The notes beneath the pieces are model-generated. The model saw only the letters and a list, made by a program, of their open reading frames with translations, ran no database searches and had not been told where the DNA came from. Position numbers and translations under genes: made by a program. Source: Myxococcota bacterium (GTDB lineage Bacteria; Myxococcota_A; Polyangia; Polyangiales; Houyiibacteriaceae). From it: DNA of 64,000 nt. Shown one piece after another: positions 1 to 16,896 of this stretch. Within the stretch, counting starts at the first letter, position 1. The number at the start of each line of letters is the position of its first letter. Location of the stretch: positions 1 through 64,000 of the forward strand of contig JANQQS010000078.1 of the NCBI GenBank assembly GCA_028284955.1. Direction: 5' to 3'.

Positions 1-78
1 ACGTGCCTCCTGGCGGGGGAGTTTGGGTGAATCGGCGGGGTCGTACCCCGACGAGAGGGTCTGGGTGCCAGACCCTCA
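1..78. repeat. Dispersed hairpin repeat, copy 1
   Basis: About 78 bases that recur with few changes at 16239-16316. It holds a short hairpin (CGGGG/CCCCG, near 36-50) and a perfect 10-bp stem (55-64 with 68-77, 3-base loop). It lies 19 bases beyond the stop codon of the minus-strand HAMP gene, so it may act at the 3' end of that transcript. The window may cut its left end. There is no T-tract, so it is not a classical intrinsic terminator. Confidence 0.8.
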
Positions 79-96
79 GGCAAACTGATCAGTGCT

Positions 97-720
97 CTAC
101 TCGAGGGCGGATTGCATGCGATCTCTTACTTCGATAATGCCCTGGAGCGAGTCGTTTTGCACGCCGGCCTGGCGGCATTGTTCGATGGCTGCGTCAAGCT
201 GTGCGATCTCTTCTGCCTGCGCGCCGCGCAATGACTCCACCATCTCTCGAAACGCTTCAAACACTTCTTGAAGCTCGTCTCCCTTGCGAAGGCGCCCGGC
301 GAGCCTGAGCTTCCCCGCCGATACTTCGTTCAACAGCATCCTCAGCTTGTAAGCCGGCCCGACCAAACGGTGAGTGACCATGATGCCGGTCAGCGCCAGC
401 GTGAGCGTCAACACCAGAATGCCCATGACAATGGCCGTCAGTACTTTCCTATCCTCTCGCTCGGCCCAACCTTCAAGCTCGGCGACCGTCTCCGGAGGAA
501 GGTCCGGCTGCATGGACATGTTGATGCTCAGCGCCTCGGTCAGGCCTCGGGAGTAGTCATACGCGAAGTACCCAAGCACTCCCGCAACGACAACCGTTAC
601 AGCCACAACCATGAACGTGTACTTCAGCTGAAACCGCGGATTCAGTAGATAGTTTCGGATTCTCCGGCGCGGTGGGCCGCCACTCATGCGCGGTTTGACC
701 GCTTCTGCGTCTGCCCCCAT
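97..720 (-). CDS. HAMP-domain membrane protein
   Basis: A 207-residue inner-membrane protein with two transmembrane segments at about residues 33-56 and 92-118, a short periplasmic loop between them, and a HAMP-type linker from about 118 to 170 that starts at a conserved Gly-Pro. There is no kinase, cyclase or methyl-accepting domain after the HAMP. Short HAMP-only proteins of this kind occur in myxobacteria and are presumed to pass signals to partner proteins; that role is inference. The N-terminus is basic and Pro-rich before the first helix, which orients it cytoplasmic. It is followed at its 3' end by a hairpin repeat. A divergent neighbour is absent: the next gene upstream (823-1695) is also on the minus strand, about 100 bases away. 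Confidence 0.8.
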   Translation of the reverse strand: MGADAEAVKPRMSGGPPRRRIRNYLLNPRFQLKYTFMVVAVTVVVAGVLGYFAYDYSRGLTEALSINMSMQPDLPPETVAELEGWAEREDRKVLTAIVMGILVLTLTLALTGIMVTHRLVGPAYKLRMLLNEVSAGKLRLAGRLRKGDELQEVFEAFREMVESLRGAQAEEIAQLDAAIEQCRQAGVQNDSLQGIIEVRDRMQSALE

Positions 721-14285: not shown

Positions 14286-15812
14286 GTGACGACGAAGCAA
14301 TGGCGACTCAAAATCGCACCGCTTGGTGCTGACATCGAGACGTCGGAGCGCACGGTGCTCGCAGAACATTGGATGGAGGCCCTGACCAAAACTCTCGACT
14401 CACTCGGCGAACCCGCGTCCATGCCCCAACGCGCAAGCTGCTCATTTGCGTCGAACGGGGTCGTGACCGTCATCGATGCCGACCACCGTCGAAGATTTTC
14501 GATTCAGGAAGTCGTCGAGACTTCGACGGCTACCGATGACGTCGAAACGAAGACCGACGTTGAAACGAAAACCATCGTCGAAAAGCAAACCGGCGTTGAG
14601 ACGCAAACCGACGTTGAGACGCAAACCGACGTCGAGACAAAGACCATCGTTGAAGGGCAAACCGACGTAAACGCGCCGGGCGATGACCGAGGCGGCGCAG
14701 ACAAGCAAACAAGCTACCGTCCACCCACCCCCGCCGCGCTGAGCAGTAGACCCCCGCCGCCGCCTCCACCATCTCCGCGCGTGAGCAGTGTTCCGCCGGC
14801 AACGACATCTGGCGTATCAGCATCGTCAGACGTGGTCACCAAACATGGCGGCGAGAACCACACGCTAATTATGAAACGCGACGAAGACCCGAGCCCCGAC
14901 AACCCACTCCGCTATCGGGAGAGAGCATATGCGGTGGCGGCCGATATCGACATCGAACACGCAGAGCGAATCGCAAAAGAACGTATCAACCAGCTGATCG
15001 CAGAGGCGAAACACGATCCGCCGGGAAAGTATTTCAGCGTCGCCATGTTCGACCACCACTGGGACCGCGCGCCCGCCCGTCCGCCGATCGTTGCGCTCCA
15101 GTGGAAGGATTGGCGCGACGAACTGGAAGTCGAATACCCGCTCGAAAAAGTTGCGCGGCGCGGGAGCGTTCAAGCGCCCAAGGCCGCCGATGAAATCCGG
15201 CCCGCGCCGATGCCCGCTCCCGCTGCGACCCCATCAACGATTGCCTCCCCGCCTAGACGTGATGGTGGCGATGATCGTGAAGCACCGCCGACAGGCGAAC
15301 ACGATGCTCGGCTCGCCAAAGCATTCGAGGCATGCCAGGATTTACTCTTCTTGGCGACTCCAGTGGAGGCTCTGGAGTTCGTGATACGGCTTCTCGACGA
15401 GCTGCTTCCTACCGAAGCGTCAAGCGCGTGTATCTACGATATTAATCACGATGAATTTCGATTCGTAGCCCTCCGCGGAATCGGCGCGGAGGCTCGACGA
15501 GGTCAGGCAGTTCCATCCAAAGCTGGACTGTTCGGGGCGGCGTCTTCGATGCTTGCCAAGATCTTGCGCGTCGACGACGTAGCCGCGGAATCTCGTTTCA
15601 AGTCCGACACTGACGGACGAACGGGTCTCGAAGTCAGAAACTTGATGTACTTGCCGCTGAGTATGCATGGCCGACTTCTGGGAATGATTCAGTTCATCAA
15701 TCGGAAAAATCGCAACTCATTCACCAATGCCGACTCAGATCTCGCAACGTACATCGGGCGCCAACTCAGCGAGTTTCTGCACGGCGCCAGAATCTCCGCC
15801 GGCGGCGACTAG
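14286..15812 (+). CDS. GAF-domain protein with hexapeptide repeat linker
   Basis: 508 residues from a GTG with a GAGGAG site 7 bases upstream. A small N-terminal domain of about 80 residues is followed by seven hexapeptides of the type VETKTD (residues 86-127), a Pro/Ser-rich region, a second unrecognised domain (about 200-295), a Pro-rich linker, and a GAF domain (about 342-500). The GAF has the usual core: an N-terminal helix, SSACIYDINHDEFRFVA, a mid-domain VRNLMYLPLSMHGRLLGMIQF strand pair, and a closing helix. GAF domains bind small ligands or signal as dimers. No output domain is present. Partner unknown. Confidence 0.82.
   Translation: MTTKQWRLKIAPLGADIETSERTVLAEHWMEALTKTLDSLGEPASMPQRASCSFASNGVVTVIDADHRRRFSIQEVVETSTATDDVETKTDVETKTIVEKQTGVETQTDVETQTDVETKTIVEGQTDVNAPGDDRGGADKQTSYRPPTPAALSSRPPPPPPPSPRVSSVPPATTSGVSASSDVVTKHGGENHTLIMKRDEDPSPDNPLRYRERAYAVAADIDIEHAERIAKERINQLIAEAKHDPPGKYFSVAMFDHHWDRAPARPPIVALQWKDWRDELEVEYPLEKVARRGSVQAPKAADEIRPAPMPAPAATPSTIASPPRRDGGDDREAPPTGEHDARLAKAFEACQDLLFLATPVEALEFVIRLLDELLPTEASSACIYDINHDEFRFVALRGIGAEARRGQAVPSKAGLFGAASSMLAKILRVDDVAAESRFKSDTDGRTGLEVRNLMYLPLSMHGRLLGMIQFINRKNRNSFTNADSDLATYIGRQLSEFLHGARISAGGD
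14541..14666 (+). repeat. Seven tandem 18-bp coding repeats (VE-x-K/Q-T-x)
   Basis: Seven in-frame units of 18 bases inside the GAF-protein gene, each encoding a hexapeptide such as VETKTD, VETQTD or VEKQTG. Two adjacent units are identical at the DNA level (the fourth and fifth, GTTGAGACGCAAACCGAC), which suggests recent slippage. The repeat is acidic and polar and probably forms an extended or coiled linker. Confidence 0.9.
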
Positions 15813-15900
15813 TTTTCGGAGGGTCTGACCCCGCAGACCCCCCCCCCACGCGGGTACAACCCGCGTGGGGCCCCCCTCCCAACGCCGCTTCGCGCTGCGC
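15813..15900. repeat. Hairpin unit A of the non-coding repeat block
   Basis: Just after the GAF-gene stop. It contains a 7-bp stem (15821-15827 with 15834-15840), then a perfect 12-bp stem (CCCCACGCGGGT 15844-15855 with its complement 15859-15870, 3-base loop), then a C-rich run. The same order of parts recurs in unit B (16100-16160) with different stem sequences. The strong GC stems close to the stop might end transcription of the GAF gene, but no T-tract follows. Confidence 0.75.
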
Positions 15901-16052
15901 GGGGGCCCCTACGCCCCCTTGCTCACTTCGTGCAGCGCTCGCAGTGAACTGCTTTCTTTGTGGGGTGTTTTTGGGGTGAGCTGCAGCTCCGCGCGTTACG
16001 GTCCGGCGAACTGTCCCATCTGTATCTGCAGGAAAACTGACTCGGTCCCCGT
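15901..16052. other. Non-coding stretch within the repeat block
   Basis: About 150 bases between hairpin units that hold no convincing gene. At 16032-16041 lies GAAAACTGAC, whose complement GTCAGTTTTC occurs at 16095-16104, so together they could form the outer stem of a structure enclosing the first 42-bp repeat. Open frames here give low-complexity Gly/Arg/Pro translations and are not genes. Confidence 0.5.
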
Positions 16053-16094
16053 CCGGCCGCTTCGCGGCCACCCCACCGCGTAGCGGCGGGGCCC
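16053..16094. repeat. 42-bp direct repeat, copy 1
   Basis: Identical to 16169-16210. It folds into two adjacent hairpins: GGCCGC/GCGGCC with a TTC loop, and CCCCaCCGC/GCGGcGGGG with a GTA loop. Confidence 0.85.
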
Positions 16095-16099
16095 GTCAG

Positions 16100-16160
16100 T
16101 TTTCTGGAGGGGCTGGCCGCAGCCCCTCCCCCCGTCGGGTACGACCCGACGGGTCCCCCC
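16100..16160. repeat. Hairpin unit B of the non-coding repeat block
   Basis: Same architecture as unit A with different bases: TTTTCTGG leads into a perfect 10-bp stem (16106-16115 with 16120-16129), then a C-run, a perfect 10-bp stem with a 3-base loop (16131-16140 with 16144-16153), then a second C-run. Pairing is kept although the stem sequences differ from unit A. Confidence 0.75.
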
Positions 16161-16168
16161 ACCCGCCG

Positions 16169-16210
16169 CCGGCCGCTTCGCGGCCACCCCACCGCGTAGC
16201 GGCGGGGCCC
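16169..16210. repeat. 42-bp direct repeat, copy 2
   Basis: Identical to 16053-16094. It is followed by GGCAGTTT, similar to the GTCAGTTTT after copy 1, so the repeated unit extends slightly beyond the 42 identical bases. Confidence 0.85.
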
Positions 16211-16238
16211 CGGCAGTTTACCCTCACGAAACCAGGTC

Positions 16239-16316
16239 ACGTGCATCCTGGCGGGGGAGCTTGGGTGAATCGGCGGGGTTGTACCCCGACGAGAGGGTTT
16301 GGATGCCAAACCCTCA
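16239..16316. repeat. Dispersed hairpin repeat, copy 2
   Basis: Matches bases 1-78 with few differences. The 10-bp stem here is 16293-16302 with 16306-16315. Against copy 1 the stem has one C-to-T change on one arm and the matching G-to-A change on the other, so pairing is kept. As with copy 1, it lies a few tens of bases beyond the stop codon of a minus-strand gene (here the TlpA-like gene at 16345-16896) and in the same orientation relative to that gene. Confidence 0.8.
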
Positions 16317-16344
16317 AAAAACAGACGGCCAGACCCTCAAACAA

Positions 16345-16896
16345 TCAGCGCAGCAGCTTGCGGATTTCTGCCTCCAGCTTTTTTGCGTCGGCTTTTCCTC
16401 GGAAACCCGCATGCACGTAGCGAACAAGTCCATTCTTGTCGATGAGATACGACGACGGCATTTTGGGGGGTCGGTAGCGCGAAGCGACACGGTGCTCCGC
16501 ATCGTGAACAACAGGAAATGCCACCCGTGTTCGTTGCAGAAACCCGCGCATGTTCCGCCGCTCGCGATCTAGGTTCACCCCGATCACCGTAAAACCTTGC
16601 GCCTTGTATTTCGCATATAACGAGTTGAGCACCGGCATTTCTTGCCGACACGGAGCGCACCACGATGCCCAGAAGTCCACCAGCACAACCTGGTTTCGTA
16701 AGCGAGCCAACCGAATCGACCGACCGTTGAGATCAGACAGACCGATTTCGGGGGCTCGTGAGCCTCCCTGCAGCGCGAACGCGGGACCAGCTAGAGTTAG
16801 CGCGGCCCCGACCAAAGAAACACACAAAACACTACGCAGCACGGACGGCATGGACGTGAGCGCGCCAAACCTATTCAGAGACCACGAACATTTCAC
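16345..16896 (-). CDS. TlpA-like periplasmic thioredoxin
   Basis: 183 residues from a GTG that overlaps the upstream stop by 4 bases (GTGA); an ATG at 16851 gives an equally good signal peptide. After the signal peptide (cleavage near AFA-L) comes a TlpA/ResA fold: VVLVDFWASWC at strand 1, the redox pair C80-A-P-C83, QGFTVIGVNLDRE, and a cis-Pro element MPSSYLIDKNG. It probably reduces disulphides in the periplasm, for example during cytochrome c maturation or for other secreted proteins. It is coupled to the DsbA-like lipoprotein gene, suggesting a thiol-exchange pair. No cytochrome c biogenesis genes are adjacent. Confidence 0.9.
   Translation of the reverse strand: MKCSWSLNRFGALTSMPSVLRSVLCVSLVGAALTLAGPAFALQGGSRAPEIGLSDLNGRSIRLARLRNQVVLVDFWASWCAPCRQEMPVLNSLYAKYKAQGFTVIGVNLDRERRNMRGFLQRTRVAFPVVHDAEHRVASRYRPPKMPSSYLIDKNGLVRYVHAGFRGKADAKKLEAEIRKLLR

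Follow-up and report, generated by a model that had tools for sequence, protein, structure and literature searches.

The block between two convergent genes

In the window, the whole 64,000-nucleotide stretch of DNA analyzed here, a block of repeats at 15813–16344 takes up all of the DNA separating the stop codons of a pair of convergent genes (Table 1). The first of these genes, which encodes a C-terminal GAF domain, also contains six tandem 18-bp repeats (14540–14683) that encode a VETQTD-like linker. Elsewhere in the window, adjacent paralogous gene segments (50680–50772/52230–52322 and 51169–51305/52722–52858) are 72–81% identical and possibly represent tandem histidine kinases.

The block contains three twin hairpins, each with a first (hp1) and a second (hp2) stem-loop. 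Units A and B, of type 1, are arranged in the order T-rich leader, hp1, C-run, hp2 (core TACRA, where R stands for A or G) and C-rich tail, while the type 2 unit C has the architecture GAGGGTYTGGCACCCARACCCTC–hp2–TTCACCCAARCTCCCCCGCC. A first-pass annotation, which had the block end at 16240, described two units (A and B) of the same architecture, and both are present where it placed them, as type 1 twin hairpins. It overlooked the inverted unit C and a second locus at 1–77; positions 1–78 of the window share 92% identity with 16239–16316. It also claimed perfect pairing in spite of differing stem bases, which is correct for the second stems of 12 and 10 bp, but not for hp1 of unit A (GGAGGGTCTG..CAGACCCCCC), which contains a single A-C mismatch (CCCCCC replacing CCCTCC).

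The 42-nt duplication noted in the same annotation is real: the two copies flank unit B and are 100% identical, which looks like the trace of a nested insertion or unequal exchange. The 10-nt inverted repeat that encloses the first copy is likewise exact in this block (GAAAACTGAC/GTCAGTTTTC), but inspection by eye showed it to be imperfect or absent in other copies, and it was therefore judged incidental rather than a family feature. At the other end of the block, a remnant of a further hp1 is apparently interrupted by the leader of unit C.

Table 1. Features of the repeat block, its flanking genes and the second element in the window.
Feature	Position	Strand	Basis or remark
Type 2 unit, second element in the window	29–77	−	Covariance-model match, 79 bits; twin of unit C
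Flanking gene, C-terminal GAF domain	14286–15812	+	Stop TAG at 15810–15812 abuts the block
T-rich leader of unit A, TTTTC	15813–15817	+	Immediately 3' of the stop codon
Unit A, type 1 twin hairpin (hp1 + hp2)	15818–15871	+	Covariance-model match, 61.4 bits
hp2 of unit A	15844–15870		12-bp stem, loop of 3, TACAA core
Long-form interior of unit A	15872–16052	+	Includes CGCTTCGCGCTGCGCGGGGGCCCCTACGCCCCCTTGC, common to other families
Arm of 10-nt inverted repeat	16032–16041	+	Partner at 16095–16104
42-nt interior segment, copy 1	16053–16094	+	Sequence repeat; two small hairpins
Second arm of 10-nt inverted repeat	16095–16104	+	Overlaps the start of the unit B leader
Leader of unit B, TTTTCT	16100–16105		
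Unit B, type 1 twin hairpin	16106–16156	+	Covariance-model match, 74.4 bits
hp1 of unit B	16106–16129		10-bp stem
hp2 of unit B	16131–16153		10-bp stem, loop of 3
42-nt interior segment, copy 2	16169–16210	+	Sequence repeat
Interior toward the type 2 end, CACGTG..CCTGGCGGGGGAGCTTGGGTGAAT	16211–16266	+	Sequence
Unit C, type 2 twin hairpin, opposite in orientation to A and B	16267–16315	−	Covariance-model match, 73.3 bits; hp1 at 16293–16315
Remnant of a further hp1, GAGGGTCTGGCC	16327–16338	−	Sequence; same junction at other loci
Convergent flanking gene, AhpC/TSA-redoxin family	16345–16896	−	Stop TGA at 16347–16345

Other repeats occur in and beside these elements. The CGCTTCGCGCTGCGCGGGGGCCCCTACGCCCCCTTGC segment of the interior (15884–15920; 33–37 nt) is 94–100% identical in genomes of other families (L042 and L051 in G044, L047 in G038), and no twin hairpin was seen beside it at L042 and L051. 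A second repeat, TAGAGCAGTGGNCAGTTTGCC/TAGAGCACTGATCAGTTTGCCTG, repeatedly adjoins type 2 units (window 78–105; L060, L108, L109, L137), and a related longer inverted repeat, TAGAGCAGYGGCCTTTTG ... CAAAATTCCACTGCTC, found at L060, L063 and L066, resembles a terminator or another MITE.

A dispersed family at gene ends

The same layout is found throughout the genome from which the window comes (G000; 6.07 Mb in 223 contigs) and, by structural search of related genomes, in other genera. Covariance models identify at least 206 copies in G000, of which at least 104 belong to type 2 and at least 102 to type 1. The pattern GGTACNACCCGN{0,8}CCCC gave 114 hits among the matches listed, a number that includes overlapping variants of single sites; its reversed control gave 0, and BLAST of the block against the genome gave 80 matches. 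Most loci have a canonical layout in which a type 1 unit is followed by an inverted type 2 unit (1> ... 2<), with the hp2 loops typically about 145 nt apart, or about 290–340 nt in a longer form; the whole element measures about 215 bp in the short form and 370 bp in the long one. Additional type 1 units form arrays such as the 1> 1> 2< of the window, and type 1 units also occur singly. Since many units lie at contig ends (C8, C37, C75, C103, C116, C196, C205, C206, C212 and others), the assembly evidently breaks at units and the true copy numbers are higher. This repeat family is probably a main cause of assembly breaks in G000.

The elements are associated with the 3' ends of genes, which make up 70 of the 90 classified flanks in G000, the gene calls being based on open frames and codon-position G+C instead of a trained gene finder. 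At 40 of these 70 gene ends, the stop codon lies 1–15 nt before hp1. The base preceding those 40 stops is C in 25 cases, T in 12, G in three and A in none, compared to G 20, C 18, T 11 and A 11 for the other frames of the window (n = 60); that is, a pyrimidine in 37/40 versus 29/60. A T-rich 5' leader with GG or TG at its end is constant among the units, but its conservation starts only at about position −13. Nested copies read CTGTGTTKTYYG there, while CTAG or CTGA is found at this place beside genes.

Of the genomes of the 57 nearest relatives, 10 carry type 1 units, and two, of a single genus, carry type 2 units. A scan of 379 genomes of the phylum gave 11 carriers, all in one class, taken to be Polyangia from the named relatives closest to the carA protein of the window, which are Myxococcota and Polyangiaceae MAGs. 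The same layout, with units directly 3' of stop codons or tRNA genes, is shared by further genera within the order and by one genus from a different family of the class. In every carrier hp1 is kept, in most as GGAGGG plus TCTG, GCTG, TTTG or CCTG, together with its C-rich surroundings, whereas the stem and loop of hp2 are particular to each genome. In one Sandaracinus-like genome (G384; L289, L294, L306), the element has an additional hairpin on its 5' side, AGAGCACGATTCA..TGAATCGTGCTCT, which makes three in all and precedes a T-rich tract. At L306 the element comes immediately after a palindrome that resembles a terminator and has a T run. Searches of plasmid, phage and viral collections gave zero matches, and a literature search on repeats in myxobacteria or Sandaracinus returned nothing relevant among its matches.

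At all five matching gene ends tested between congeneric species, the unit is absent from the congener. Both flanks align at three of these sites. At the first, G384 has a 117-bp unit-bearing segment directly after a TGA stop, where the congeneric G044 reads ..CCGCTGAGCGCCCC.. without the segment; here the insert matches the extent of the dispersed copies. At the other two, both in G317 compared with the congeneric G134, the unit replaces existing sequence rather than being cleanly inserted: in one, it takes the place of 12 bp between two convergent gene ends and supplies a new TAG stop, and in the other it immediately follows a tRNA gene, at a point occupied in G134 by 23 unrelated bases. Two further pairs of congeners likewise include a species with no unit after the matching gene, although one of these cases (G011/G016) is weaker because the downstream flank fails to align. 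These are pairwise comparisons, in which the difference at each site may be a gain or a loss.

The dispersal of the units, together with the unit-lacking gene ends in congeners, argues for a mobile repeat that is non-autonomous and behaves in the manner of REP/BIME. The compound repeat family that the first pass had suggested is upheld, with units that are dispersed, modular, covarying and mobile. Our favored reading, with a probability of roughly 0.7, is that mobile palindromic repeats of REP/BIME type, unable to move on their own, make up the block as a mosaic, and that a single-strand nuclease or transposase acting in trans would join them at gene ends.

A classical MITE, an internal-deletion derivative of a DDE-type IS that moved via its terminal inverted repeats and whose hairpins are by-products, would share the element lengths, the related ends that face inward, and the dispersal and presence/absence between relatives. 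Such an origin is unlikely, however, considering that no target-site duplication was present at the three sites read, that the ends are alike in structure and not in sequence, that type 1 units also occur singly or in tandem (1>1>2<), and that no parental IS was seen in a non-systematic search.

Probable pairing in DNA and the proposed mechanism

The stems exceed chance. Any perfect stem of at least 9 bp appeared in only 86 of 2000 dinucleotide shuffles (4.3%), compared to four at separate places in the block (528 bp), and units A and B folded as single-stranded DNA are about 6 SD below their own shuffles (z about −6). Pairing is also maintained as the bases change: across the 54 distinct units of type 1, pairing holds in 97.1% of cells and 150 cells have changed on both sides, against 59.5 in shuffled sets, a signal that is lost when the partner column is slid. 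Type 2 units behave in the same way (60 double-change cells against 18.1), although the cells are not independent in either set, as unit copies share descent. Each set contains a single G-U cell, two in about 1650. This lack of G-U intermediates favors Watson–Crick pairing in DNA, or template-switch repair (PMC8794818), over RNA, and as far as sequence can tell, the covarying stems point to a DNA structure.

The first-pass annotation had offered a structured RNA cluster as its other suggestion. In this interpretation, the twin hairpin would be a 3'-UTR element selected at gene ends, acting as an mRNA stabilizer or as a U-less or Rho-related terminator, which would suit the strong stems and their location immediately 3' of stops and tRNA genes in several genera. 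It is slightly less probable than the MITE origin and, as a reading of the block, is not supported. Apart from the near-zero G-U count, an Rfam search of the whole window gave zero matches, units are missing from the matching gene ends of sister species, only a small share of genes have one, and many genomes of the family have none at all. An intrinsic terminator is ruled out by a scan that gave one weak site in 750 bp against 0.9 in shuffles and by the T tract, which precedes hp1 instead of trailing the hairpins. Strong covariation at a locus, as this family cautions, is no proof of RNA.

Replication template switching, which is described as a means of quasi-palindrome correction (PMC8794818), could keep the stems perfect in place of selection while the repeats spread passively by recombination, in line with multi-base blocks that change together with pairing intact and no G-U intermediates, but this is highly improbable as a full account, since it leaves unexplained the precise placement at gene ends, the insertion at new sites and the fixed order of the two hairpins across genera. 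Template switching may nevertheless contribute to the perfection of the stems.

In the favored model, that of a mobile REP/BIME-type repeat, the basic unit is the twin hairpin, and the canonical element has type 1 at one end and inverted type 2 at the other. Dispersal and the gene ends that have no unit in sister species show that elements have been copied to new sites close to where protein-coding and tRNA genes end. A single-strand nuclease or transposase, presumed to act in trans, would recognize the folded hairpins in single-stranded DNA. The element would then be joined next to a pyrimidine followed by T, at the stop codon or immediately upstream of it, and the survivors would be those insertions that leave or supply a stop. 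Compound blocks like that at 15813–16344 could be built by nested insertion and unequal exchange.

No transposase linked to the units was found. There were no units within about 1.5 kb of 30 PF01797 (Y1/RAYT) genes, including the genome's own, and PF01797 is present in 6/12 unit-bearing genomes versus 27/46 others, and thus shows no association with the units. The carriers G011, G014, G016, G038, G044 and G054, some of which are draft genomes, have no PF01797 match at threshold. RAYT is thereby ruled out as the partner, as tested by adjacency and co-occurrence. A more specific version of the model, which we offer only tentatively, is a RAYT-free mobility system confined to Polyangia, in which the enzyme would read the conserved hp1 plus the genome-specific hp2 as an address label and position new copies with precision at stop codons and at the ends of tRNA genes. 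The genome-specific hp2 could be matched to candidate recombinases, and several pairs of congeners that differ in having or lacking the unit at a site are available, as is a carrier genome in a single complete contig. How REP-like repeats such as the CGTC class spread, lacking a transposase dedicated to them, is a question on which the family bears.

Comparison with known repeat systems

The closest parallel is with REP/BIME, the repeats of TnpA-REP (RAYT) systems, which include GTAG and CGTC super-families, lie at gene 3' ends, often within 20 bp, and sometimes supply the stop codon (PMC3733652, PMC8266576). The units described here are likewise high-copy intergenic palindromes that occur as opposite-orientation pairs beside the 3' ends of convergent or co-directional genes, and the inverted dimers frequent among REPs have their counterpart in the 1> ... 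2< layout. TnpA-REP cleaves REPs at C|T, and G-T pairs are frequent in REPs (PMC3733652, PMC8266576). The pyrimidine-T preference seen here resembles this cleavage, but G-T pairs are nearly absent. In addition, a REP is a single hairpin of 20–40 nt, compared to two hairpins and about 50 nt here, and the unpaired GTAG or CGTC tag is lacking: CGTC in type 2 units is part of the hp2 stem and is replaced in many copies. The family thus works in the same way as REP/BIME but falls outside that group under the definitions of PMC3733652 and PMC8266576, because RAYT, the obvious candidate, carries no unit and is missing at threshold from six of the 12 carriers.

The TIR repeats associated with TIRYT, some of which are double palindromic, flank Y1 transposase genes (PMC3733652). 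Compared by description, they share the use of double palindromes as terminal repeats, a moderate copy number and the occurrence of dimers and clusters, but no Y1 transposase gene carries a unit here. The PIT/TMECO repeats of E. coli are intrastrand-triplex motifs with a single motif of 37 nt (PMC4666352). They are similarly intergenic, rich in GAGGG/CCCTC and inverted in opposite orientations, but differ in layout, and the CCC-N-CCC tail is variable here (CCCTCCC, CCCACCC, CCCGCCC). An intrastrand triplex (GGGAGGG/CCCTCCC/CCCTCCC) was set aside for the units since this tail base varies.

Like bacterial MITEs, the elements are short, non-autonomous and dispersed, but they differ in their covarying hairpin ends, in place of fixed terminal repeats, as well as in the points of target site and parent IS raised above. 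The BOX elements of pneumococcus are modular repeats with a variable number of inner modules. The family resembles them in this modularity, but its sequence is unrelated, and the gene-end distribution and twin-hairpin unit are different.

The REP/BIME-like kind of repeat is thus already known, and what is new here is a twin-hairpin family of mobile palindromic repeats, hundreds of which are spread through the genomes of a group of Polyangia (Myxococcota), almost exactly at the ends of genes.
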